Source of the DNA: Spongiibacter thalassae
GTDB lineage: Bacteria; Pseudomonadota; Gammaproteobacteria; Pseudomonadales; Spongiibacteraceae
Direction of reading: 5' to 3'
Length of the DNA: 64,000 nt
Assembly (NCBI RefSeq): GCF_012272835.1
Contig: NZ_JAAWWK010000004.1
Coordinates: forward strand, 124,001 to 188,000
The notes under the pieces were generated by a model that saw nothing but the letters and a program-made list of their open reading frames with translations, made no database searches and had not been told where the DNA came from. The translations under genes and the position numbers were made by a program. Below are positions 9,587 through 35,995 of this stretch, one piece after another. Within the stretch, counting starts at the first letter, position 1; each line of letters starts with the position of its first letter.

Positions 9587-9746
9587 TAGACGCTAGACGC
9601 TAGACGCTAGACGCTAGACGCTAGACGCTAGAGAGCGTATGACCTCCGGGCCAGGCATCAAGCGCCTCGCCTGTCTTTCCGTTCCAGCGTTTTGCGTCTA
9701 GCCATTCTTTTGCGTCTCACGTCCGGCGTTTAGCGTCTCGCCATTC
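9587..9746. repeat. Six-copy TAGACGC tandem repeat with inverted-orientation copies downstream
   Basis: Six uninterrupted copies of the 7-mer TAGACGC occupy 9587-9628. Further on, the opposite orientation appears as GCGTCTAGCCATTCTT and GCGTCTCGCCATTCTT, two near-identical 16-mers around 9694 and 9733. The block fills the nrdR/glyA gap. It shares AGCGCCTCGC and GCGTCT words with the block at 60-192. It has no coding potential that I can support. Confidence 0.85.
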
Positions 9747-23120: not shown

Positions 23121-26100
23121 ATGTTGTTATCGGATACGGCGGTCAAGCGGCCGGTTTTCGCGCTGGTTATCAGTTTGCTGCTGGTGGCCTTTGGCAGCCT
23201 CGCCTTCGACCGCCTGCCGCTGCGTGAATACCCCGACATTGACCCACCTATTGTCACCGTCAGTACCACCTACCTCGGCGCCTCGGCGGAGGTTGTAGAA
23301 TCCAAGATTACCCAGGTGATAGAGGACCAAATTGCCGGTGTCGAGGGCATTAAAACCGTGTCCTCCAGCAGTCAGGACGGGTTTTCCTCGGTGAGCATCG
23401 AGTTCAAGCTCAGCCGCGACATCGACGCCGCGGCCAACGATATTCGCGATCGCGTGTCGCGGGTGATCAACAGCCTGCCCGACGAGGCCGATGCCCCGCA
23501 GGTGCAAAAGGCCACCTCCGACGAGCAGGTGATTCTCTGGTTCAATCTGACCTCGGAGAAAATGACCAACCTCGAACTGGCCGACTACGCCCAGCGCTAC
23601 CTGGTAGACCGGCTGTCGGTGCTCAACGGCGTCGCCAGGGTTCGGGTCAGTGGCGGCCCCGAATACGCCATGCGAATCTGGCTGGATCAGGAAGCCCTGG
23701 CGGCCCGGCAACTCACTGCCAGCGACATTGTAGACGCTCTGCGCCGGGAAAACGTCGAGCTGCCCGCGGGCACGCTAAAGTCCCAATACCGCGACTTTGT
23801 GGTGAAAATCGAGCGGGAGTATCTGACCCCGAAGGACTTTGCCGAGCTGGTCATCCGTCGCGACAGCAACGGGTATTTACTGCGTCTGGGTGATGTTGCA
23901 CGGGTGGAGCTGGCCGCTGAGGAATACCGCAACATGTTTCGCGGCAACGGTATTCCCCAGGTTGGCCTGGGGATTATCAAGCAGTCGGTGGCCAATACTC
24001 TGGAGGTCGCCGAAGCGGCTAAGCGCGAGGCCGATAAACTGCGCAAGGGGCTGCCCGAGGGCACCGTGTTGCACGATAGTTTCGACAGTTCAGTATTTAT
24101 CGACAGCGCGATCAAGGAGGTCTACAGCACGCTGTTTATCGCCGCGTCGCTGGTGGTGCTGGTGATCTTCCTGTTTCTGGGCGATGTCCGCGCGATGCTC
24201 GTTCCCGCACTCACCGTGCCGGTGTCACTGATCGCCACCTTCACCGTACTGTCGGCACTGGGGTACACCATCAACCTGCTCACTCTGTTGGCATTGGTCC
24301 TGGCCATTGGTCTGGTGGTGGATGACAGCATCGTGGTGCTGGAAAACATCCACCGCCGTCTGGTGAACGGCGAAACGCCGTTAGTGGCGGCCTTTCGCGG
24401 CAGTCGCCAGGTCGGCTTTGCTGTGGTTGCCACAACGCTGGTACTGGTGGCCGTGTTCATCCCCATCACCCTGCTCGACGGCGACCTCGGTCGCCTGTTC
24501 GGCGAGTTTGCCGTGGCAATGGCGGTCGCAGTGGTATTCTCCAGTCTTGTCGCCCTGACCCTGTCGCCGGTGATTTGCGCCAAACTACTGCGGCGGGACG
24601 CCATCCACGGGCGCATGGCAAACTTCGTTGAGGGTCTGCTCCACCGAATGGAACGCCTCTATCGCCGGCAACTCGGCGTGAGTATGCGCCGTCCACTGCT
24701 GTCTGTGCTGGTAGTACTCGCTGCGCTGGGCAGTTCGGTGTTCTTCATGCAAACCGTGCCCAATGAGTTTGCGCCCAAGGAGGATCGCGGGGTCATTTTC
24801 GCGCTGATACGCGGCCCGGAAGGTGCCTCCTTCGAATTTGTTACCGAGAACCTGGTCGAGTTCGAGCGGCGGCTGATGCCCCTGGTGGAAAACGGCGAGA
24901 TCAACCGACTGCTGGTGCGCGCTCCCGGTGGTCGCGGCGGCGCCGATAGTTACAATGAAGCCTTTTCCATCATTGTACTGAACGACTGGGGAACACGGCG
25001 TCCCAGCAACGAAATTGTCGCGGATATTCGTCGCCGAATGGCAGGTTTTACCGCCCTGACGATTTTCCCCATTCAACCCCAGGCCCTCGGCGGCGGTTTT
25101 AACAAACCCGTGGAGTTTGTGATTGGCGGCGGCGACTACCGGCAGCTGACCCAGTGGCGCGACAGCATTCTCAGCGAAGCGCGCAAGAATCCCGGCCTGC
25201 TGGCATTGGACAGCGACTTTCGAGAAACCAAACCGCAAATGGTGGTTAAGGTATTGCGCGACCGCGCCGCCGACCTCGGCGTGAGTATCCGTGAGATCAA
25301 CAGCAGCCTTGAAACCCTGCTTGGCTCGCGCAAGGTAACCACGTTTATGCTGGATGGCGAAGAATACAACGTCATTCTTGAAGGGGAACCCGACCGCCAC
25401 AGCAGCCCGGCAGACCTGCACAATATTTATGTTCGCGCCAACAGCAATGCCCTTATTCCCCTGTCGAATCTGGTCACCATTGACGAGCGCGGCGACGCCG
25501 CTGTGCTTAATCGTTATAACCGCGTCCGCGCTATTACCCTTAACGCCAGCCTTGCCGACGGTTACCCCCTTGGTGAAGCCCTTCAATATCTGGAGGAGCT
25601 GACCCGCCGAGTCGCCCCGGAGGCCTCCATAGACTACAAAGGGGAGTCACTGGATTATGTCAATGCCGGAGCCTCGGTGTACTTTACCTTTGCCCTGTCC
25701 TTACTCGTGGTCTATCTGGTGCTGGCCGCCCAATTCGAAAGTTTCGTACACCCCATGGTGATTCTGCTGACCGTTCCCCTGGCTGTGGCGGGCGCGCTGG
25801 CGGGGCTTTACCTGACCGGACAAAGCCTGAATATCTACAGCCAGGTGGCGCTCATTATGCTGGTCGGACTGGCGGCCAAAAACGGCATTTTGCTGGTGGA
25901 GTTCACCAACCAACTCCGGGATCAGGGCGTAGCCTTTGAAGACGCGATTCTGCGCGCGGCGGAGCTGCGCCTGCGCCCGATTATTATGACGGCAATCACC
26001 ACCATTATGGGCGCCCTGCCCCTGCTGCTATCCTTTGGCGCGGGCAGCGAATCACGCTTTGTTATCGGAGTGGTGATTGTGTTTGGAGTGAGCTCGGCCA

Positions 26101-26231
26101 CCCTGTTCACCCTGTTCGTGGTGCCGATGGCCTACCAGAAGCTGGCCCGTCATACCGGCTCACCGATGGATGTCAGCCATCAGTTGGCAAAGGAACTCGC
26201 GCAAATTGAAGACAAGGAGCGCACCGAATAA
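23121..26231 (+). CDS. RND multidrug efflux transporter (AcrB/MexB family, HAE1)
   Basis: This proton-driven inner-membrane pump is 1036 residues, the normal length, with twelve predicted membrane spans in two halves. The proton-relay residues are visible: Asp401-Asp402 in TM4 (GLVVDDSIVVLENIHRR) and Lys920 in TM10 (LVGLAAKNGILLVEF). The adaptor is encoded just upstream. No outer-membrane TolC-type gene is present here, so the pump presumably uses a channel encoded elsewhere. The substrate cannot be inferred from sequence. Confidence 0.94.
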   Translation: MLLSDTAVKRPVFALVISLLLVAFGSLAFDRLPLREYPDIDPPIVTVSTTYLGASAEVVESKITQVIEDQIAGVEGIKTVSSSSQDGFSSVSIEFKLSRDIDAAANDIRDRVSRVINSLPDEADAPQVQKATSDEQVILWFNLTSEKMTNLELADYAQRYLVDRLSVLNGVARVRVSGGPEYAMRIWLDQEALAARQLTASDIVDALRRENVELPAGTLKSQYRDFVVKIEREYLTPKDFAELVIRRDSNGYLLRLGDVARVELAAEEYRNMFRGNGIPQVGLGIIKQSVANTLEVAEAAKREADKLRKGLPEGTVLHDSFDSSVFIDSAIKEVYSTLFIAASLVVLVIFLFLGDVRAMLVPALTVPVSLIATFTVLSALGYTINLLTLLALVLAIGLVVDDSIVVLENIHRRLVNGETPLVAAFRGSRQVGFAVVATTLVLVAVFIPITLLDGDLGRLFGEFAVAMAVAVVFSSLVALTLSPVICAKLLRRDAIHGRMANFVEGLLHRMERLYRRQLGVSMRRPLLSVLVVLAALGSSVFFMQTVPNEFAPKEDRGVIFALIRGPEGASFEFVTENLVEFERRLMPLVENGEINRLLVRAPGGRGGADSYNEAFSIIVLNDWGTRRPSNEIVADIRRRMAGFTALTIFPIQPQALGGGFNKPVEFVIGGGDYRQLTQWRDSILSEARKNPGLLALDSDFRETKPQMVVKVLRDRAADLGVSIREINSSLETLLGSRKVTTFMLDGEEYNVILEGEPDRHSSPADLHNIYVRANSNALIPLSNLVTIDERGDAAVLNRYNRVRAITLNASLADGYPLGEALQYLEELTRRVAPEASIDYKGESLDYVNAGASVYFTFALSLLVVYLVLAAQFESFVHPMVILLTVPLAVAGALAGLYLTGQSLNIYSQVALIMLVGLAAKNGILLVEFTNQLRDQGVAFEDAILRAAELRLRPIIMTAITTIMGALPLLLSFGAGSESRFVIGVVIVFGVSSATLFTLFVVPMAYQKLARHTGSPMDVSHQLAKELAQIEDKERTE

Positions 26232-26261
26232 GCCCTGAACTTTTGCGCTTGATATATTCCG

Positions 26262-27089
26262 TTATTGGCTATCGTTCAGCCGCCAGTCGTAGTCGGTAAA
26301 ACTCACCGAAAGCTGCTTTTCGCGGATGGCGTTCCGGGCCGACGGCTCGTCAGCCAGTTGCTGACTGAAGCCCGCCAGAAAGCCCTTCAGGGAGTGATGA
26401 CCGCGATAGCCGCGGGTGAAGTCGTCTTCGTACCAGTCGAAGATTTTCGACACCTCCAGCCGCTGGCGCTGAGGGTTGTAGCGATTGCGGGAGCGGTCGG
26501 ACATAAATCGCTGCGCCTGGTCATCAAGTTGGCGATCGAGGGCCTCCGCAGTATAGGCCTCCTCCCTCAGTGAGGGGCATCCCACCGAGGCACAGTTCAC
26601 CGCAAAATGAATACGCGGGTCGTCGAACACCCCCGGCTCCCGCAAACGCTGATGCTCTATATCATCAAGGCTCAACTTGTCGCCCAACAGCGGAATAAAA
26701 CGTAGCTTCCATGGGCTCGAAAACCAGCCACCGATATCCTTGATAGACGTGATGCCGGGGTAGTGATCCAGCACAAGGCGAAGGGTAAAGGCATTATAGG
26801 CATTGATGAGAAAGGCCATTTTTTCCCGGCGGTCGAAGGCCGCATATTGCGCCGGCGACACCGCAGACAATACCGTCAGATAACGATCCAGCCGAGCACT
26901 GTCCTCCTTCAACGCCCGGTAGTTCACCCGGCTGCTGTGCCCACCCACCGAAGGTTGTACATGGTCGGCCAGCAACTGGCTGAAACCGTCGTGCTGCACC
27001 TGGGCAACGGCGGGAGCAGCCACCGCTATAATCAGCGCGATCAGCAGCTGCCCTCCTCGCTTGCATCGAACTGTTTGCGTCGCTGCCAT
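26262..27089 (-). CDS. Secreted DUF547 protein
   Basis: The 275-residue product has a signal peptide (MAATQTVRCKRGGQLLIALIIAVAAPAVAQ). The DUF547 core follows, including AFLINAYNAFTLRLVLDHYPGITSIKDIGG, LDDIEHQRLR, DPRIHFAVNCASVGCPSLREEAY and the C-terminal FDWYEDDF. The conserved cysteine and histidines resemble a papain-like arrangement, but the enzymatic role of DUF547 is not established. The ATG at 27089 is set by a GAGG site nine bases before it. It lies downstream of two secreted low-complexity genes on the same strand, separated by a terminator. Confidence 0.85.
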   Translation of the reverse strand: MAATQTVRCKRGGQLLIALIIAVAAPAVAQVQHDGFSQLLADHVQPSVGGHSSRVNYRALKEDSARLDRYLTVLSAVSPAQYAAFDRREKMAFLINAYNAFTLRLVLDHYPGITSIKDIGGWFSSPWKLRFIPLLGDKLSLDDIEHQRLREPGVFDDPRIHFAVNCASVGCPSLREEAYTAEALDRQLDDQAQRFMSDRSRNRYNPQRQRLEVSKIFDWYEDDFTRGYRGHHSLKGFLAGFSQQLADEPSARNAIREKQLSVSFTDYDWRLNDSQ

Positions 27090-27139
27090 AGCGGCTACCT
27101 CGATGATGGGAAACCACCAGTGTACTGCAGCCTTACGGC

Positions 27140-27178
27140 AAAAACGAAAAAGCCCGAACCGTTTCCGGTCCGGGCTTT
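27140..27178 (-). terminator. Intrinsic terminator after the first LP-rich secreted protein gene
   Basis: On the minus strand a stem AAGCCCGGACCG pairs across GAAA with CGGTTCGGGCTT (one mismatch) and is followed by TTTTCGTTTT. It ends the transcript of the gene at 27206-27610. Confidence 0.85.
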
Positions 27179-27205
27179 GCAAGCCACTCTCACCCACTGC
27201 CGGTT

Positions 27206-27610
27206 TCAGGGAAAGACCAGCGACAATACTGGATCGAGCACCTCGTCAACCGGAGCATAGGGGGTGACAAAGGGCAGTGCGGAATAAACCACGCTCTTGG
27301 GCAGCGCTCTGGGGTTATTCACATGAATCATCGCCAGGCCGACCACATTGAACACGTAGTTTTCGAGACCACCGAGATCCGGCACCGCCAGCTCTGGCAG
27401 TTCTCCCGCCCCTGGCAACTCCTCCAAGCCTGGAAGGGGCAGTTCACCGGGCGCGCCCGGCAACTCCCCCAGGCCCGGCAGCGCCGGCAATTCGCCGCCA
27501 AGGCCGCCGACGATGCCCTCAAGATCCAGCGGAAGTGCTGGCAACTGGGCCGCCGCGGGGTAGGCCACCACTGCCGCTGTCAGCACTGCTGCATTAAGAA
27601 TTTTTTTCAT
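27206..27610 (-). CDS. Secreted Leu/Pro/Gly-rich protein LP1, unknown function
   Basis: I do not recognise this family. The 134-residue precursor has a signal peptide ending AAA, then a mature start QLPALPLDLEGIVGG. A low-complexity stretch (about residues 40-90) built from LPxLPGLGELPGAP-type words follows, and then a more ordinary C-terminal part (ENYVFNVVGLAMIHVNN...). There are no cysteines. The ATG at 27610 has an AGGAG site. The mature N-terminus aligns without gaps with that of the neighbouring LP2 protein, and both genes share an upstream element, so they look like a diverged tandem duplication. Export to periplasm or beyond is the only role the sequence supports. Confidence 0.75.
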   Translation of the reverse strand: MKKILNAAVLTAAVVAYPAAAQLPALPLDLEGIVGGLGGELPALPGLGELPGAPGELPLPGLEELPGAGELPELAVPDLGGLENYVFNVVGLAMIHVNNPRALPKSVVYSALPFVTPYAPVDEVLDPVLSLVFP

Positions 27611-27862
27611 GGCTGTCACTCCTGTGATATCAGACTCAGACCCGGGAATCCCGACAGGGATTGGCGGGCAACAGCGCTTGGGCCTCGGCACTGACGCCAA
27701 CCACCAATGTGGTTTAAACCGCCCTGCGCCAAGGGTGCGAAACGCCGTTGTTCTGCTTTTTTACATCGTTATCTATGGCATTCAAGGCACTTACAGCACG
27801 ATTTCATCGCTTTGCATCGTTAACGCTAATGCGACCCAAAAACAGCTGCAAGAAAGAAAGGA

Positions 27863-27909
27863 ATTTTGTCCACAAGCTGTGACAGACAGCGCCAAAAGGT
27901 GAGTAATAG
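27863..27909 (-). promoter_or_regulatory. Conserved upstream element, copy A (LP1)
   Basis: This 47-base block matches the block at 28766-28812 at 37 of 47 positions without gaps. Shared words are ATTTTGTC, GCTGTGACA, AAAAG and TGAGT-ATAG. It stands about 250 bases upstream of LP1. It could hold a promoter and operator (the minus strand has CTGTCA/TTGTCA followed by AT-rich sequence), but no convincing -10 is visible. Confidence 0.55.
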
Positions 27910-27925
27910 TGGCTTACCCGCCCGT

Positions 27926-27962
27926 GAAAGACGACTCCGAACAGTGTTCGGAGCCGTCTTTC
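27926..27962 (-). terminator. Long hairpin after LP2
   Basis: Arms GAAAGACGACTCCGAAC and its complement (17 pairs, one mismatch) enclose AGT, four bases after the LP2 stop codon. The T-run is only TTT at the stem base, so it is a strong hairpin but an imperfect intrinsic terminator. Confidence 0.7.
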
Positions 27963-27965
27963 AAC

Positions 27966-28382
27966 TTACAAACTTCCAACAATTCCCAGTACCGTTCCCG
28001 GCCCCACAGGCAAAGCCCCCAGGTTCGGCAACGGCAGACTCCATACCGAGGGCAATTGTTCGAACGGCACCATGCCTACAATCTGCAAAACGGTGCCGAC
28101 GCCCACGGGTAGAGTACCGAGGCCGGGGAGCGGCAAGGTTTCAACGCTAACCGGCAGCTGCTCAAAGGGCACCATGCCGACTACGCTCAGCACCGTGCCC
28201 ACCCCCACCGGGAGAGTGCCAAGATCCGGCAGGGGTAGCGACCCCACCGAGGGCAGCGCGCCAATCACGCTGCCGCCGGTTATCGCTCCCACATCGACGG
28301 GCAGCGCCGGAATCTGGGCATAGCTGGAACAGGAAAACCCAAGAGCCGCCGCCAGGACAGCTGGTTTGATGCAATTTTTCAC
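27966..28382 (-). CDS. Secreted tandem-repeat protein LP2, unknown function
   Basis: The 138-residue precursor has a signal peptide (MKNCIKPAVLAAALGFSCSSYA). The mature start is QIPALPVDVGAITGG, matching LP1. From residue 48 it consists of three tandem repeats: 48-81, 82-114 and a shorter 115-138. Each begins [ST]LPLPxLGTLP, then VGVGTVL and VGMVPFEQLP. The repeats are also clear in the DNA, so the expansion is recent or under conversion. I know no family for it. Regular Leu/Val/Gly spacing suggests a repetitive beta-type or surface-assembly structure, which is inference. The ATG at 28382 has a GGAG site. Confidence 0.78.
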   Translation of the reverse strand: MKNCIKPAVLAAALGFSCSSYAQIPALPVDVGAITGGSVIGALPSVGSLPLPDLGTLPVGVGTVLSVVGMVPFEQLPVSVETLPLPGLGTLPVGVGTVLQIVGMVPFEQLPSVWSLPLPNLGALPVGPGTVLGIVGSL

Positions 28383-28870
28383 GATTTACACTCCTTTGGA
28401 ATCGGGTAGTGCCACCGACCATCGGCGGCTCACCGACAGGTGATCCGCGACGACAGAAAAAGTGAGTCGCGCCTTTGAGGGGTGCGACCACCGGCGACAG
28501 AGGAAGAACCGCGCCGACTTCAGCGCTTGTCAGGGTGTGTAGTGAATCCGCCGATACGCCAGCAATCGCACCGGAAGACTCCCCCACGGCACTCCGAATC
28601 CATCAGAAAGCGCCAAGCGTCAAAGTATGGAGGCACGTAGCACGGGTGTTTTCTCGCTCCCTGGGTAGAAGTCTCTGGACGACACCGCATGCGCAACAAC
28701 TCACAAAACGAGTGCTGCGACATTTACGCTAAGGGGACGCTAAACGTGCATCAAGGGAGAAAATTATTTTGTCGGCAGGCTGTGACAAACTCGGCGAAAA
28801 GATGAGTCATAGCGACAAAAAATGAGAATTAGTGAGTCCCACCCCGGACAGACGGAACCCACGGCAGGCG
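28383..28870. other. Long intergenic region upstream of LP2
   Basis: No gene is supported in these 488 bases; short reading frames here have no ribosome site or family resemblance. It contains the LP2 leader (about 380 bases) and the conserved element at 28766-28812. Confidence 0.55.
28766..28812 (-). promoter_or_regulatory. Conserved upstream element, copy B (LP2)
   Basis: This is the second copy of the 47-base block also found at 27863-27909. On the minus strand it reads CTATGACTCATCTTTTCGCC, then GAGTTTGTCACAG, then GACAAAAT. A TTGTCA hexamer followed after 16 bases by TAATTT gives a weak promoter candidate. Conservation between two otherwise diverged intergenic regions implies function. 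Confidence 0.5.
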
Positions 28871-29953
28871 CTACAGGCGGGCGCGCTCCAGCTCTGCTTC
28901 CGTCGCCGACTCGGCGAGGCGAAGCAGGCGTACCTCTTTGAACAGGTGGTGGGCGGCACTGTGCTCGGTGAGCGCGTCAGCCGCCAGCAAAATGGCCGCT
29001 GCAGTCCATGTGGGACGCTCGTTGGGCCATAACAGGTCTTCAGCAAACTGGTAGCCGGTCCAGTATTCACCATTGCTTTCCCGCCACTGGTGCAACCAAC
29101 TGTAAACCACCACTGCACGGGCATGGTCCCCCGCCGCAAGCAATGCCATGGTCAGCTCACAGGATTCTGCCACCGTGACCCAGGGCTGATCGGCCACACA
29201 GCGGCAGCCCATGCCCTCCTCGACAAACTCATTCCAGCGGCGCTGCAAATGGGCGCTGGCCTGAGCCCGCGGCAGCGCGCCGGTGAGCACCGGGTAGAAC
29301 CAGTCCATGGAATAGCGCGCCTTGCTCTCCCAGGTGCGATCAAAGCGCTCGGGTTTGTTGCGCAGGGCCTGCCCCAGCGCCTCGCGGGCGCTGCGCCATT
29401 TGGGCCGGGGATCATCCAGGCTGACCGAAATATTCCAGGCACACTCCAGGCTTTTATAAATGGAAGAACAGCCGGTGACCAGCGCATCGCACAGCGGCTC
29501 GCCGTCGGCATTTACCGCCCAATTGATCTCGCCGTGGCTGCTTTGCTGGGCCAGGACAAATTCCATCGCCGATTGTACGCAGGGCCACATCGCCCGCAGA
29601 AATTGGCAATTTTTGCTAATCAGGTAGTGATGCCACACACCGGTGGCGATATAGGCGACAAAATTGGTCTCCCGACGCTCACAGTTGTCGACGTCGCCGT
29701 TGCGGTAGGCTGCCCACCAGCTACCGTCTGGCAGCTGAATATCCCGCAGCCAGTAATAGGCGAGCTCCGCCGCGCGGAATTCGCCGCCAATGCTCAGTCC
29801 CATCGCCGATTCGACATGATCCCAGGGGTCTGCATGGCCGCCGTCAAACCAGGGAATGCTGCCATCGGCCTGCTGTGCGCGCAGCAAAAAATCTACGGTA
29901 GGGCGAAAAAATTCTTCCGGGTACAGTCCCTTGCTTAGAAAAAGTCCACTCAT
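28871..29953 (-). CDS. Alpha/alpha-toroid (terpene cyclase/prenyltransferase-fold) protein, role unknown
   Basis: The 360-residue protein shows repeated QW-like motifs of squalene-cyclase folds: AQQADGSIPW, IQLPDGSWW, QQSSHGEINW and RESNGEYWTGY. It also has DPWDHVESAMGLSIGG and WVTVAESCELTMALLAAG. The protonating DxDD of class II cyclases is absent, and no CaaX-type zinc set is evident, so neither activity can be assumed. A glycan-processing (alpha/alpha) barrel is an alternative. The ATG at 29953 overlaps the stop of the methyltransferase gene (ATGA), so the two are translationally coupled. Confidence 0.7.
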   Translation of the reverse strand: MSGLFLSKGLYPEEFFRPTVDFLLRAQQADGSIPWFDGGHADPWDHVESAMGLSIGGEFRAAELAYYWLRDIQLPDGSWWAAYRNGDVDNCERRETNFVAYIATGVWHHYLISKNCQFLRAMWPCVQSAMEFVLAQQSSHGEINWAVNADGEPLCDALVTGCSSIYKSLECAWNISVSLDDPRPKWRSAREALGQALRNKPERFDRTWESKARYSMDWFYPVLTGALPRAQASAHLQRRWNEFVEEGMGCRCVADQPWVTVAESCELTMALLAAGDHARAVVVYSWLHQWRESNGEYWTGYQFAEDLLWPNERPTWTAAAILLAADALTEHSAAHHLFKEVRLLRLAESATEAELERARL

Positions 29954-30672
29954 GACGACGATCCCTTCTGAAAGTACATTACCACCGACTTGCCCATCAC
30001 CGGGTTCAGCGAACGCTCCAGTGCGCGGGTCACGAAGGGCTGGTCCATAAGGTCCCACACCAGAAACCGGTGGTAGGTTTTCACCAGTGGATTATCGTCC
30101 TTCTCCCAAAACGCGCATTTCAGCCACCAATAGGGCACATGCAAGGCGTGGGCCCAATGGCGGCGATAAAAGCGAAAGCCCAGCGATTGTATTTGGCGGC
30201 GCAGCGTCGAGGCTTTGAATATACGCAAGTGCCCACCCTCGACCTGGTGGTAGGCATCGCTCAGGGCCCAGCAGATTTTTTCCGGCCAGGCCCGCGGTAC
30301 AGAGGCGCAGAACAGTCCGCCCGGCTTGAGAATTCGCTCGATTTCAACCAATACCGCCTGGTAGTCGGGAATATGCTCCAGCACCTCCGAACAAATGATT
30401 TTGTCGAAGCTGTTATCGGCAAAGGGCAGCTTCATGCCGTCGGCATTGACCAGGGCCAGTGACTTGTCGGTACGCTCGCCATCGACAAAGTCTGTTGCCC
30501 GCTGCTGGGCAGTTTTCAGGTCATTGAGGCATAAATCGACACCAATGGCGGTAATCTCGCCCTCGACATAGGCGGAGATAACGTGACGGCCCTCACCGCA
30601 GCCGAGGTCCAGCAGGCGATCGCCGGGTTGTAATTCAAAGTGCCGGAAATCAACAGTTTTCAAGTGCGTCAC
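29950..30672 (-). CDS. Class I SAM-dependent methyltransferase
   Basis: The 240-residue protein has the SAM-binding motif I LLDLGCGEGRHV, the acidic GVDLCLNDL after strand 2, and FDKIICSEVLEHIPDY (motif with EVLEH), as in the Methyltransf_11 type. The substrate is unknown. It overlaps the upstream glycosyltransferase by 23 bases and the downstream toroid gene by four. This makes a tightly coupled three-gene operon that probably modifies one glycan or glycolipid. Confidence 0.88.
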   Translation of the reverse strand: MTHLKTVDFRHFELQPGDRLLDLGCGEGRHVISAYVEGEITAIGVDLCLNDLKTAQQRATDFVDGERTDKSLALVNADGMKLPFADNSFDKIICSEVLEHIPDYQAVLVEIERILKPGGLFCASVPRAWPEKICWALSDAYHQVEGGHLRIFKASTLRRQIQSLGFRFYRRHWAHALHVPYWWLKCAFWEKDDNPLVKTYHRFLVWDLMDQPFVTRALERSLNPVMGKSVVMYFQKGSSS

Positions 30673-32032
30673 CTGTGCTATGGGGGGGATGAATTACTGT
30701 TTGGTAGTAGTCCAGCATTTGCGCTGCGCTGCGATGCCAGCAGAACAACGACTCAATGCGGCGCCGACCCGCTTGCTCCAGTTGGCATCGCAGATCGCCG
30801 TCACTCAACAAACGATCAATCGCCGCGCCAAGCGCCTGACTGTCGCGCACCGGCACCTGCAATGCCGCATCGCCAACCACCTCTGGCAGGGCACCGCCAG
30901 TGGTGGACACCAGCGCGGTGCCACAGGACATCGCCTCGCCGGCGGGCAGGCCAAAGCCTTCGTAGACCGAGGGCACGACAGCGACTTCGGCTTCATTGTA
31001 GTAACGCACCAGCTCTTCAGTGCTGATACCGGAAACCGTGCGGATATATCCACGCAGTCCCAATTTATCAATCAACTGGTCGGCCTCGCCGCCCGCGTGG
31101 GGCTTGCCGACCAGCAGCAACTCCAGATCCGGGTACTTCGGCAGCAGTTCTGCCAGGGCTTCAAACAAATAGCGCACACCTTTCAGCGGCTGGTCCGCCG
31201 ACACCGTCGCCATGAGGCGGCGAGGGATTTTGCTCACCTCAGGCAGTGGTCGGAACTCCTCGGTATCAATACCACAGTGCACCAGATGAATGGCCGCAGG
31301 CTGGAGGTCAAAGGCCGCGGCAATATCCTCCCGCGACCGCTCGGAGACCGTCACCACATGGTGCAGCTCCCCCGCCACTCTCTTTTGCATTTTCAAAAAA
31401 TAGTGCCAGCGCTTGATAAACAGCCGTTCGCGCCAGTTTTTCGCCGCCTTCAGGGCAATGCGCAGGTCGCTGGTTACGGGGTGGTGAATCGTCGTTACCA
31501 GCGGAAAACCAAGACGCTGCAGTTCCAGCATGCCGTAACTCAGGCTCTGGTTGTCGTGAATAATGTCGTAGTGGCGTCCAAAGCGCTTCAGGTACTTCAC
31601 CACCCGGCGACCAAAGCAATAGGGCTCAGCAAAGCCCCCGCTCAGCTTGCTGGTCCACTCGATAATATTGGTGAGCGAGCTCAGGTGATGAAAGCGCAAA
31701 GACCCCAGACCGGTTTCAAACAGGTTCAAACCCGGCATGGGGATCAGGCGTACCCGCGGATCAAGATGGGGATAGGGCTGACCGGATATCACATCCACCC
31801 GGTGCCCGGCATCAACCAGAGCCTTGCTCAGATATTTAAGGTAAATGCCCTGACCGCCGCCAAAGGGCGCACTGCGATAGCCTAACAAGCAGATATGCAG
31901 TGCCCGCTGCGGAGCCGTCTCTCCAGTGGGCGGATTCAGCGGTACCACCGTTGCCGAGGTCGGTGCTGCAGGGCGTACTGCCCGGGTTGAACTGTCCGCT
32001 GTTCGCGGAGCACCTGTCGGGTCTTGTGCCAT
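30650..32032 (-). CDS. Glycosyltransferase family 4
   Basis: This is a GT-B fold retaining glycosyltransferase. After a roughly 40-residue Thr/Pro/Ala-rich N-terminus come GGGQGIYLKYLSKALVDAGHRVDVISG (acceptor domain) and the donor-site block VAVVPSVYEGFGLPAGEAMSCGTALV with the EX7E motif. The start is ambiguous: ATG at 32032 is taken here, while GTG at 32044 is possible and neither has a good ribosome site. It is the first gene of the coupled glycosyltransferase-methyltransferase-toroid operon. Confidence 0.88.
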   Translation of the reverse strand: MAQDPTGAPRTADSSTRAVRPAAPTSATVVPLNPPTGETAPQRALHICLLGYRSAPFGGGQGIYLKYLSKALVDAGHRVDVISGQPYPHLDPRVRLIPMPGLNLFETGLGSLRFHHLSSLTNIIEWTSKLSGGFAEPYCFGRRVVKYLKRFGRHYDIIHDNQSLSYGMLELQRLGFPLVTTIHHPVTSDLRIALKAAKNWRERLFIKRWHYFLKMQKRVAGELHHVVTVSERSREDIAAAFDLQPAAIHLVHCGIDTEEFRPLPEVSKIPRRLMATVSADQPLKGVRYLFEALAELLPKYPDLELLLVGKPHAGGEADQLIDKLGLRGYIRTVSGISTEELVRYYNEAEVAVVPSVYEGFGLPAGEAMSCGTALVSTTGGALPEVVGDAALQVPVRDSQALGAAIDRLLSDGDLRCQLEQAGRRRIESLFCWHRSAAQMLDYYQTVIHPPHSTGDALENC

Positions 32033-32303
32033 ATCGGGGTTCACTTTGTTGTTGGTATATCGGATCAGCCCAATACCGCGTCACCATATCGAGCGCCTGA
32101 CGCGCTATAACAGTGCCTGCGCCGGGCCGCCGCAGCGGTCGTGGAGACTGGCGATTCTGCGCCCTCCCGACCATAAGTAAATGGATTCTAACCATCGACA
32201 TGCGATAAATCTACCGACATACCCCCGCTGTCAGGAGCACGGGGATTACCACTTTGTCATGTTACAATCGAGCTTTGCTGCACTTTCAGAGGATCACCTG
32301 GCA

Positions 32304-32720
32304 ATGGCCCATTTTTCAGTCCTTCGACTGAGCACCCGAACCCGCTTCCGGCTGGCACTGCTGTGTCTGTCGGCCTGTTTTATCGCCGCCTGCAGCGGCC
32401 CACAGAGCCGCCGTCAGGAGTTCGGTCGCTTTACCCAACTGGAGCGCGATGGCGGTTTGCGACTGTTTGAATACGAATTTCGACGGCCACAGCAGCAGGT
32501 CCGGCCCATCACCCATACCACCGACCCTGAAAGACTCGCCCGCGAGCGGGAAATGCTCAAGCCCGAAAACCAGTTACACCACGCCAAGCTACTGTTAAAA
32601 CGCGACTCGCGGGTGAAGGAGTACTGCCCCAACGGCTATATCATTCTGGATGAGTACGTGGTGCTGGATGAAATCAAAATTCGCGGCGAATGCCGCTATC
32701 AGGAGAGCACGTCCCGCTGA
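32304..32720 (+). CDS. Small lipoprotein, unknown function
   Basis: The 138-residue precursor has a signal sequence with lipobox-like LSAC (Cys25) and IAAC (Cys30); the second is the better lipidation site. The mature part is charged and includes FGRFTQLERDGGLRLFEYEFRR and a C-terminal segment YCPNGYIILDEYVVLDEIKIRGECRY with two cysteines. I do not recognise the family. The ATG at 32304 is preceded by AGAGGA. It stands alone, divergent from the glycosyltransferase operon. Confidence 0.7.
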   Translation: MAHFSVLRLSTRTRFRLALLCLSACFIAACSGPQSRRQEFGRFTQLERDGGLRLFEYEFRRPQQQVRPITHTTDPERLAREREMLKPENQLHHAKLLLKRDSRVKEYCPNGYIILDEYVVLDEIKIRGECRYQESTSR

Positions 32721-32728
32721 CGCAGGTG

Positions 32729-32760
32729 AAAAAAAGGGGCTCCAAAGGAGCCCCAAAAAT
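32729..32760 (-). terminator. GGGGCTCC hairpin flanked by A/T runs
   Basis: GGGGCTCC-AAA-GGAGCCCC (32736-32754) has seven A on the left and five A then T on the right. It is therefore a canonical terminator only for minus-strand transcripts, such as read-through from the TonB receptor, although it lies just after the plus-strand lipoprotein gene. Confidence 0.65.
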
Positions 32761-33184
32761 CCGGTGCCATCATAACAGTCCACTGCCGCCCATATCGGCA
32801 ATTTCCCCTATGGTGATGCCACCCGTCCCAAATCATCCGTCACAGCGCCGCACTGGGCAGCCTTGACAGCAACAGTAAAAATCCTTGGTGCACTAACGTC
32901 TATCCGTAGTTCTCACAGCCCACGCGCCATCCACTGGCGCGCAAACTCGGCTGAAAGCAGGCATGAAAGGTACATAAAACTTTGCTGGGGTAGAGAAACG
33001 ACTGAATTTTCATAGCCTTACCAAGCATTTTCTGCCAGCAGGACCGAATGGACCCGGCCCTTCATTATTATAATTGACTGCGGTCCAGAATCGGCGACAC
33101 AGCCGACATTCTCAGCCTAAGTGACCCGATTGTTACACGGTGCAGACCCCGCGGCAAGACCGCGGAGCGCGAGTAGCGTGTTTT
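32761..33184. other. Gene-free region between lipoprotein and TonB receptor
   Basis: I find no supported gene. There are small hairpins, e.g. GCGCCA-N5-TGGCGC near 32930, and CCGCGG-N5-CCGCGG just after the receptor stop. A small RNA cannot be excluded but nothing specific indicates one. Confidence 0.4.
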
Positions 33185-35797
33185 TTACCAGCGATAGCTC
33201 GCCTGAAGCGCCAAAGTGCGAGGTGGGTTGATTAAACCATGATGCGTTGTCGCACCGGTGATGGTTTTGGCCGTAGGTGCATCGACACCGTAGGCAACGA
33301 CCAGCTCGTCGCTGAGGTTTTTACCCAGCAGGGCCACTTCCCACACGCCGTCGATGGACGACAGCGCAATTCGACCGTTGTACTGCACATAGGCATCCTG
33401 TTTGATGCGATCATCCAGGTTGGGTGAGGGATGGTAGGCGCCGGTGAAGATCGCATCGAGGTTAGCCCTCAGCATAAACTCATCACCCAGCGGACTCTCA
33501 TAGGCCAACAGCACATTTCCCGAATAATCCGCCACGTACTGATTGGTCTTCCCGCTGAAATCACAGTTGATGCCATTGGGGTTATCGGGCGCCTGATCCT
33601 GAATACAGGTGCCCAGCGGGTGATCCTGGAATTCAAAGTCGAGGAAGGCCAGGCCACCGGCGAGCATCAGATTTTCCGTCAGGGCCATACGACCATCGAA
33701 TTCAATACCCTGGGAAATCGCGCTGGCAGCGTTGCCGACGTTAAAGCCGAGGGTGCCATCAAACACGCTGACCTGCAGGTTATCGAACTCGGTGCGGAAC
33801 AGGGCGACGTTTAACTCCGCCGCGCCGTCGAGCAGGGTGGTTTTCAGCCCCAGCTCCATGCTCAGAGCCTCTTCCTCGTCATATTCGAAGCTGCCGATCA
33901 GTACCTGTTGGTTGGTGCCGCCGGGGGCATTGGGATTGAGTGGCGTGGGCTCAGCACTGGGCGAGGAGTTTGAGCGAGCATCAAAGCCGCCGGACTTGAA
34001 GCCCTGGCTGGCAGAAAAATAGCTCATCATCACATCATTGACGTCCCACTGAACGTTGATGAGCGGTGCGAACTGCACTTCGGTGCGCTTGCCCTTGAGG
34101 TTGTGCCGTTCCGCCGCAAAGCTCACCGCAGCGGCGGTATCCACTTCACCCAGAGGCTGGATGCTGCCGTCATCAAAGCCGAATTCCAGCTGGCGCGCCC
34201 CCGCCTTGTTCTCCCAGGTCAACCGGCCACCAAAGGTCATACGGAAGGCATCGGCCATATTCCAGGTCGTTTGCAGGAACGCCGAGACTATTTTCGACTC
34301 ACTGGTAAAGTCACGGGGAGTGCGGATACCCCGCAGTGCGTTACCCGCATCGCCAAAGCCCAGGGCCTCAAAGCCGGTGCTGCCATCGGCACCGGGGTCG
34401 CGATCACCGCGGGCACCCCCTTCCAACAAGTCGGCGGCGTTCACCAGTTGTGGAACGATGTCCGAGGGCAGGTACAGGGAGTCAAAGAAATCCAGTTTAC
34501 TGTATTGGAAGTACATGCCACCGATGAAATCAAAGGTCTCTGCACCTGGGGAGATCCAGCGAATCTCCTGGCTCAGCTGGCGGTATTGCTCGGCAAACTC
34601 CACCTGAAACAGAGGCGCACCGGTAAAGTCGCAATCGCAATCCTCATCGTATTCATAGCCCATTACCCCGGTGATGGAGGTGAATTGATGCCCCTCGCGA
34701 TACCAGTCCAGATTCAGGGTCAGGTTGTAGGTGTCGTTGTTGCTGTAATCGCCGTTGGAGTGGCGCTTGTAGTCGGCGGTATTGTTTAACACCCCGGAGT
34801 CGGAGTCGATATCAATCACCGAGCCATTGCCCTGAATTTGCAGCACGTTCAGCACCGCTGCGGGCAACAGACCAATGGCCGCGCCCCCGGCCCCGGCATC
34901 GGGAAACACCGTGCGATCCATGATTTCGCCATAGGTTCGACCAGAGAACAGAAAGACATCGGAGTTGGACGGATAGTTGGTAATAATTTCCGAGTTCCGC
35001 CCAACCACATCGAAGCTGCCCATTTCCGCCTTCAACGAGGCACTGACCTCGTCGTTGACATCCCAGGCCAGCTTGAAGCGCAGGGTCAGCTCATCCCGCT
35101 GGGTTTCATCCCGGTCCAACACCAGGTTTTCCATAAAGCCATCCAGCTCGCGCTTGCGCACCGCAAAGCGAAAATCAAAGCGCTCGTTCAGCGGCCCGCT
35201 GAGCATCAGGTCGACGATGCGCTCGTTCTGTACCGGCTCGTAGGTGACCTGGCTGCTACCCTCGAAATACTCGGTAGGATCAGCGGTTTTGATATTGATG
35301 GCGCCGGCAATACTGTTTTTACCCAGCAGAATATTCTGCGGGCCGCGCAATACCTCTACCCGCGCCAGGTCGAGGAAAGGCGCCCGCGCAAGCTGGGCGC
35401 GGCCGTAATAGATGCCATCGACATACATCCCCACTGACTGCTCAAAGCCCTGGTTTTCCCCCGAGCCGATGCCGCGAATATAAATATCGGTGCCGATACC
35501 CGACTCGGACATGGTGAAATTGGGCACATAGGCCTGCAAATCTTCAATTTTGGCCAGTCCGGCCTCCATCATTTTGTCACCGCTGATTGCACTGACCGAC
35601 ACCGGCACATCCTGCAGACTTTGCTCGCGCAGCTGGGCCGTGACCACTACCTCCTCAAGCATAGGTGCGGCTTGAACAGCAGCAGGAGCCACCATGAACA
35701 GCGGCAGCAACATCCCGGCAAGCCCTCGGGGGAGTATGGGGGTGCCAACAGGCGCTTCGGGTGTATGAGTAACAGATTCAACGTTGATGAATTTCAC
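33185..35797 (-). CDS. TonB-dependent outer-membrane receptor
   Basis: This is a ligand-gated beta-barrel energised by TonB. The 870-residue protein has a signal peptide-like N-terminus (about 1-45), the TonB box LEEVVVTAQ and a plug domain (VPVSVSAISGDKM ... VEVLRGPQNILLGKNSIAGAINIKT). A long barrel ends with the terminal aromatic W of ASYRW. The start is GTG at 35797, preceded by AAGAGG; longer readings lack support. The plug resembles receptors for non-siderophore substrates in marine and sphingomonad bacteria. Its place next to fadE hints at hydrophobic nutrients, an inference. Confidence 0.92.
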   Translation of the reverse strand: MKFINVESVTHTPEAPVGTPILPRGLAGMLLPLFMVAPAAVQAAPMLEEVVVTAQLREQSLQDVPVSVSAISGDKMMEAGLAKIEDLQAYVPNFTMSESGIGTDIYIRGIGSGENQGFEQSVGMYVDGIYYGRAQLARAPFLDLARVEVLRGPQNILLGKNSIAGAINIKTADPTEYFEGSSQVTYEPVQNERIVDLMLSGPLNERFDFRFAVRKRELDGFMENLVLDRDETQRDELTLRFKLAWDVNDEVSASLKAEMGSFDVVGRNSEIITNYPSNSDVFLFSGRTYGEIMDRTVFPDAGAGGAAIGLLPAAVLNVLQIQGNGSVIDIDSDSGVLNNTADYKRHSNGDYSNNDTYNLTLNLDWYREGHQFTSITGVMGYEYDEDCDCDFTGAPLFQVEFAEQYRQLSQEIRWISPGAETFDFIGGMYFQYSKLDFFDSLYLPSDIVPQLVNAADLLEGGARGDRDPGADGSTGFEALGFGDAGNALRGIRTPRDFTSESKIVSAFLQTTWNMADAFRMTFGGRLTWENKAGARQLEFGFDDGSIQPLGEVDTAAAVSFAAERHNLKGKRTEVQFAPLINVQWDVNDVMMSYFSASQGFKSGGFDARSNSSPSAEPTPLNPNAPGGTNQQVLIGSFEYDEEEALSMELGLKTTLLDGAAELNVALFRTEFDNLQVSVFDGTLGFNVGNAASAISQGIEFDGRMALTENLMLAGGLAFLDFEFQDHPLGTCIQDQAPDNPNGINCDFSGKTNQYVADYSGNVLLAYESPLGDEFMLRANLDAIFTGAYHPSPNLDDRIKQDAYVQYNGRIALSSIDGVWEVALLGKNLSDELVVAYGVDAPTAKTITGATTHHGLINPPRTLALQASYRW

Positions 35798-35995
35798 TGA
35801 GACCTCTTGGTATGCCGGTTCAAATGTTATTTTTGGGCGACCCGCTAAAGGGGCCTGTTTTTTTATGTGCAGTGATGTTGCCCGCACATCACGGGCAGAT
35901 TGGGAAGTGTCTGGCAAAAGGAAGGTCGGTGCATTGGCTGCACCGACGGCGTAGTAGAGACGTTTGAGTCAAATCAATGCAGCCAGCCCTCGACC

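Follow-up and report, generated by a model that had tools for sequence, protein, structure and literature searches.

Two tandem secreted proteins of Spongiibacter thalassae as probable offshoots of an undescribed, genus-restricted and largely receptor-linked family of exported proteins

Two adjacent genes in the Spongiibacter thalassae genome encode small, Leu-Pro-rich secreted proteins, here called A and B, and the locus raises the question of which protein family, if any, they belong to and what such proteins might do. The stretch of DNA analysed, referred to as the window, comprises 64,000 nucleotides of contig NZ_JAAWWK010000004.1 and is numbered from its first letter. The first-pass annotation, made from the letters alone, described two related tandem open reading frames on the minus strand, each beginning with a signal peptide; both frames hold at the coordinates given in Table 1, and the signal peptides, assigned by eye, are retained as well. 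In B, the signal peptide is followed by QIPALPVDVGAITGG and then by degenerate repeats, of which two units are complete and a third is partial. In A, it is followed by QLPALPLDLEGIVGG, an LPxLPG stretch and a tail of about 50 aa, so that the annotated layout of an LP-rich stretch plus tail stands, the tail being non-repetitive. The motif AGGAGTG precedes the start codon of each gene and is taken as a ribosome-binding site. An alternative A of 164 aa, read in the same frame from a TTG start in the open reading frame listing, was judged unlikely. The inverted repeat that follows the B stop codon is a putative terminator that was absent from the output of the terminator scan, and an Rfam search of positions 26000-33200 returned no match.

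Table 1. Features of the A/B locus and its surroundings (window coordinates; the slot is the interval between the three-gene set and the RND gene)
Feature	Position	Strand	Remarks
Protein B	27966..28382	-	138 aa, GTG start; read before A
Protein A	27206..27610	-	134 aa, ATG start
97-nt upstream element, copy 1	28716..28812	-	334 nt before B start codon
97-nt upstream element, copy 2	27813..27909	-	203 nt before A start codon
Inverted repeat	27925..27963	-	arms of 19 nt, 95% complementary; directly 3' of B stop codon
Terminator-like hairpin	27149..27178	-	13 pairs and T-rich tail; 3' of A stop codon
Three-gene set	28871..32044	-	upstream edge of slot; GT4 glycosyltransferase/methyltransferase/395-aa protein
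GT4 glycosyltransferase	30650-32044	-	operon
Methyltransferase	29950-30672	-	operon
395-aa protein	28871-30058	-	no Pfam family
RND efflux pump gene	23121..26231	+	convergent, downstream slot edge; named by eye, no Pfam call
DUF547 protein	26262..27089	-	within slot here
TonB-dependent receptor	33185..35917	-	nearest seen, about 4.8 kb from B, not adjacent

Codon usage by itself does not decide the coding status of the two frames. Synonymous-codon scores are weak (0.055 for A and 0.036 for B, with 0.15-0.18 in four large genes of the window that also belonged to the training set), and A lies scarcely above one antisense frame (0.043). That both are chance frames without a protein product, as these scores might suggest, is nevertheless barely credible in view of a 97% identical relative of A on other contigs, the ribosome-binding sites at both start codons and the pattern of change within B. 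The repeats of B, which had been called exact, are not: the two full units are alike at 26/29 residues and 59/87 nt, and their 28 differences are distributed as 5, 2 and 21 over codon positions 1, 2 and 3. Since 21 of these 28 differences fall at third positions, the B frame is under selection. When the partial unit is included, pairwise comparison over 23 aa gives 16-20 identical residues and 41-47 identical bases out of 69, and the combination of degenerate nucleotides with similar residues marks these as old repeats that selection has kept similar. Tandem Repeats Finder reported two arrays in the window, neither within the A/B region; these are an exact TAGACGC array of 6.6 copies at 9587-9632 and an array of a 14-nt unit at 62-115 (3.9 copies, 82% matches). 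Both A and B are real genes.

The relationship between the two proteins is concentrated at their beginnings. As had been noticed in the initial reading, their mature starts match without gaps, with 9 of 15 residues alike and a BLOSUM62 score of 51, a value attained by none of 200,000 pairs of random 15-mers with matching composition. Over the whole mature parts, the local alignment score is 86, with a maximum of 77 in 1,000 shuffles. In addition, a 97-nt direct repeat lies upstream of the two genes, its copies being identical at 69/97 positions; no such element was found upstream of other family members in 55 upstream records, which include those of A and B and three from fragment or cut frames. 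A segmental tandem duplication may thus have given rise to A and B, in which case the upstream element, the signal region and the first 15 mature residues would have been kept while the remainder diverged.

Sequence searches place neither protein in a described family, as the first-pass annotation had anticipated. A has no Pfam match at E values up to 10, B matches only DUF6114 at a sub-threshold E value of 1.9, and neither matches NCBIfam at E values up to 0.1. Among 5.8 billion proteins searched with phmmer (E up to 1e-3), A finds a single relative, the 97% identical one, and B finds only itself. A matches one genome out of 57 and B one of the 18 genus genomes, in both cases its own, and a tblastn search of a plasmid collection with A gave no match. 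The prospect raised earlier, that the pair would recur next to this operon in many genomes, was not realized at the sequence level, as the A and B sequences are without a match in 17 congeners. Within the genome itself, in a seven-protein set, A and B are similar to one of two larger secreted proteins (the C9 pair, described below) at E values of 5e-6 and 2e-6, and this local similarity falls in the low-complexity part. In whole-genome searches, the corresponding values are weak, being 0.009 at best for A against the C9 paralogues and 0.17 for B.

In the genome, A and B adjoin a glycosyltransferase operon, as annotated, and its 395-aa gene is found in 18/18 genus genomes and its other two genes in 17/17 congener loci. 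The 395-aa gene is a widespread conserved gene of a GT4/methyltransferase operon; its relatives occur on 556 genome stretches and, among the best 80 of 556 loci, in many other genera, and the protein has only a weak, partial NCBIfam match to an oligosaccharide amylase. The 395-aa and RND genes lie at most 3 kb apart in 12 of the 18 genus genomes, with the RND gene about 5 kb away in G012 and none seen in five loci. Half of these 12 slots (own genome, G003, G011, G014, G016, and G017) hold one or more secreted genes, and the other half (G001, G002, G005, G008, G010, and G015) hold none, with 31-290 nt between the ends of the tblastn matches. The DUF547 gene of the slot is unmatched in 17/17 congener slot loci. 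Slot proteins are LP/GG-rich in G011, G014, G016 and G017, and in these same four genomes their signal peptide and Q-P mature start resemble those of A and B; the G003 slot protein is not LP-rich and lacks such a start. On the far side of the operon, positions 33185-55387 encode two TonB-dependent receptors, three acyl-CoA dehydrogenases, one beta-ketoacyl synthase III, and a series of genes for amine-oxidoreductase-type, DUF1365 and cyclopropane-synthase-type proteins.

In G003, G016 and G017, the slot protein has a C-terminal domain, some 65 residues long, which recurs in the C9 pair, two tandem LP-rich secreted proteins of approximately 390-410 aa encoded on contig C9 of the S. thalassae genome (L059:7755-10615), in which the domain is placed inside the chain. 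This pair, a second tandem pair of such proteins in the genome, adjoins a gene of the P450 cluster. A first domain model recovered 17 of the 18 genus genomes (Zhongshania/Spongiibacter) and, outside the genus, one of 275 genomes (G158), where the match is weak and interrupted by a stop. A model of 42 rows again recovered 17/18 in the genus, with 0/3 in the sister genus of the same family, 0/373 other genomes in an order sample and 0/397 others in a phylum sample that may overlap the order sample; within the genus, the domain was absent from G009. When the 42 domain segments were compared with Pfam and NCBIfam, single segments matched two families (best E 0.07) and ten families (best E 0.017), respectively, which we take as chance, and the domain profile matched no PDB chain. 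Of 53 domain frames, 50 were counted as members; those dropped are fragments in L090 and L119 and an L102 frame that is cut by the locus end and may be a real member. The two fragments (L090:5685-5807 in G016 and L119:6375-6536 in G017) each follow an intact member directly and resemble decaying duplicates. Members combine a signal peptide with the C-terminal domain, often with a Leu-Pro/Gly-Gly stretch of low complexity as well; many are repeat-rich, and mature length is very variable, from 96 to 490 residues in the 50 members. In all six member pairs compared, more differences fall at third codon positions than at either of the other two. The literature searched contained no paper on the domain family and none linking TonB-dependent receptors to Zhongshania. 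The domain defines a new, undescribed, genus-restricted and largely receptor-linked family of exported proteins.

The members are set apart by an unusual composition. Their mature parts have a median Lys plus Arg content of 0.9%, compared with 9.4% for 207 proteins of 100-400 aa encoded nearby, none of which falls below 1.3%. Trypsin would find few cleavage sites in the members, which may help to explain why such proteins go unnoticed in proteomics. Hydropathy is +0.76 in members (range 0.12-1.15) and -0.10 in the neighbouring proteins, and Cys is absent from the mature part in 50/50 members. A and B fit this composition, with 2 Lys/Arg in 113 mature residues and a hydropathy of 0.51 for A, 0 Lys/Arg in 116 residues and a hydropathy of 1.05 for B, and no Cys in either; the domain-less slot proteins of G011 and G014 fit it as well. 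A signal peptide with an [AS]Q pattern within residues 18-42 is shared by A, B and 47/50 domain-family members, a count of Q-starting proteins that is partly circular because the same pattern was used to locate the mature start. By a crude cut, only 13/50 members have the Q[LVI]P mature start of A and B.

Do A and B, then, belong to this family? On the iterated domain model they score 0.3 bits and -1.8 bits, respectively, leaving the domain undetected in both; the tail of A compared with the domain is equalled or bettered by 30 of 1,000 shuffles, which is a hint only. Since the defining domain was tested for and not detected, A and B are not filed as members of the domain family. Together with the absence of sequence matches in congeners, this leaves room for the view that they are unrelated to the family, that is, lineage-restricted low-complexity secreted proteins of convergent composition that occupy the slot by chance. 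Low-complexity sequence can converge, which counts against membership, and the similarity to the C9 paralogue, which argues for kinship, lies in just such a part and is weak genome-wide. We nonetheless consider an unrelated origin unlikely. The slot and strand of A and B are those of domain-bearing members in G003, G016 and G017, the signal and Q-P start recur in most of the occupied slots, and the rare composition is the same. In the domain-model search, neither the G011 nor the G014 slot protein reaches the domain, yet the IPVVGGLLGGDLLGG repeat of the G011 protein recurs in a paralogue encoded elsewhere in that genome that does bear the domain, so that a single genome contains this repeat type both in a protein with the domain and in one lacking it. 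A and B probably belong to the domain family as domain-less, fast-changing offshoots, a membership that would rest on slot, strand, signal and mature start, and composition.

A role for the family is suggested by its neighbours, defined for the 50 members as the three nearest open reading frames to either side with a length of 100 aa or more. They include a gene of the receptor cluster in 38 members and none in 12; the single representative of this cluster that was tested has the barrel and plug domains of TonB receptors. In 28 cases the receptor gene directly precedes the member in the same orientation; it is divergent in 5, downstream in 4 and three genes upstream in 1. Receptor-linked members occur in Zhongshania aliphaticivorans, Z. 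marina and Z. antarctica; the one domain gene found in Spongiibacter marinus (L112) lacks a receptor neighbour. With 36-85 plug-domain matches per genus genome (85 in the present one), receptors make up perhaps one or two genes per hundred, gene number being assumed. The count partly reflects shared descent, as the 28 immediate cases fall into only 8 of the 18 clusters that remain when members are collapsed at 50% identity; an adjacent receptor in any orientation occurs in 13 of the 18. Distances between receptors and between domains are correlated (r 0.76, 0/2,000 permutations, 36 of the 38 pairs), and when collapsed to 12 receptor clusters the correlation is r 0.27, reached in 63/5,000 permutations. 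Two sequences, GACTTTGG and TACTACAA, seemed strongly enriched in 52 upstream records but were rejected as a shared motif, being part of the coding region of the receptor gene that precedes the member. One receptor that fronts a member (L128:3194-5542) was searched for in 27 genomes chosen from 39 (G018-G056) and found in one, G018 of the sister genus (37% identity, E <= 1e-80), where no gene of the domain-family type lies behind its relative; this receptor is itself nearly confined to the genus. Among the slot members with the domain (L053, L054, and L055) and the C9 pair, no receptor is nearby, and A and B likewise have none adjacent; support for a receptor role is therefore weakest at the very position of A and B.

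Other recurrent neighbours, in each case with one representative tested per cluster, include P450, acyl-CoA dehydrogenase, enoyl-CoA hydratase, AMP-binding ligase, fatty-acid desaturase and aldehyde dehydrogenase clusters (3-7 loci each). SnoaL-like and TetR genes also recur, again with one representative of each tested. The gene set suggests catabolism of hydrophobic compounds, and steroid-degrading isolates are known in the Spongiibacteraceae from the part of one report drawn on here (PMC5790920). Exported, hydrophobic, acidic, Cys-free proteins, many of them encoded beside receptors and catabolic genes, in turn suggest a carrier or local solubiliser. A precedent for the involvement of such a receptor in steroid uptake is EdcT (PMC7793797). 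In the joint reading that we tentatively favour, without giving it even odds, A and B are diverged duplicates in a family slot, and the family serves as exported accessories for hydrophobic substrates at TonB-dependent receptors. A and B would be local, rapidly changing occupants of a slot that holds family members in congeners. The family proteins would be exported by Sec; in the periplasm or on the outer surface, their hydrophobic chain might bind or partition a sparingly soluble nutrient resembling an alkane, a sterol or a fatty acid; the cargo would be presented to the neighbouring TonB-dependent receptor, and the C-terminal domain would probably dock on the receptor or the membrane. A and B, with neither a detectable domain nor an adjacent receptor, could be free or surface-coating versions. 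In a more specific form that we regard as on the whole rather unlikely, the proteins would be private carriers of Zhongshania/Spongiibacter, with one carrier-receptor pair per substrate (steroids, alkanes, and fatty acids), and A and B would have lost the docking domain to become a shared or surface-bound reservoir.

Two further explanations bear on the family as a whole. The proteins might instead be structural surface or matrix components that self-assemble into a coat, an adhesive or a hydrophobic layer, accompanied by a polysaccharide that the glycosyltransferase operon would make. Hydrophobic, Cys-free mature parts of such variable length, many of them rich in repeats, would suit that role, and the slot does adjoin the GT4/methyltransferase operon. 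The operon is kept in 17/17 congener loci with the slot gene present or not and therefore does not need it, and the 395-aa gene extends well beyond the genus. As the domain-bearing members are moreover mostly found beside receptors, A and B seem only weakly tied to the glycosyltransferase operon, and a structural role seems rather unlikely. Alternatively, the family could consist of regulators of receptors or of envelope stress, small surface proteins that tune receptor abundance or gating in the manner of YjbI. The receptor linkage and the co-divergence of receptor and domain are compatible with this, and a precedent exists in YjbI of Caulobacter, a secreted repeat protein described, in the portion of the report used here, as acting through TonB-dependent receptors (PMC12864828). 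YjbI, however, is a pentapeptide-repeat protein and thus of another type, and genes of the TetR and LuxR/MalT types neighbour only some of the loci; we consider regulation very unlikely.

The accessory-protein reading, if it holds, would bear on a step that is in our judgement poorly understood, namely the passage of barely soluble compounds across the outer membrane of gammaproteobacteria. The first link between a TonB-dependent receptor and the uptake of steroids dates from 2020, by the authors' account in the part of their report cited here (PMC7793797). A family with a new domain, an unusual composition and many genes behind receptors offers tractable pairs for testing exported uptake helpers. 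The locus also illustrates that an orphan-looking pair can be placed by slot and composition where sequence search fails.

Several known systems invite comparison. Receptors of this kind have secreted or surface-exposed partners, such as the haemophores (HmuY and the Slam-dependent haemophore of Acinetobacter) and SusD-like proteins. The family shares with them the combination of a small exported protein and a neighbouring TonB-dependent receptor, and partner and receptor co-diverge here. It differs from them in that the 42 domain segments have no significant Pfam or NCBIfam match and their profile none in the PDB, in its hydrophobic, nearly Lys/Arg- and Cys-free composition, and, for A and B, in the lack of an adjacent receptor. 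Chaplins, hydrophobins and elastin- or silk-like coat proteins are likewise small, exported, hydrophobic and of low complexity, and possibly self-assembling; A, B and the domain match no such Pfam family. As far as the cited portion of the report describes it, YjbI is a pentapeptide-repeat beta-helix with conserved cysteine pairs, unlike the Cys-free mature members of the present family (PMC12864828). EdcT of Novosphingobium, a TonB-dependent receptor linked to estrogen uptake, differs in that no small secreted partner is mentioned for it in the part of that report drawn on here, but resembles the present loci in that a receptor is encoded with P450 and acyl-CoA dehydrogenase genes and the substrate is hydrophobic (PMC7793797).
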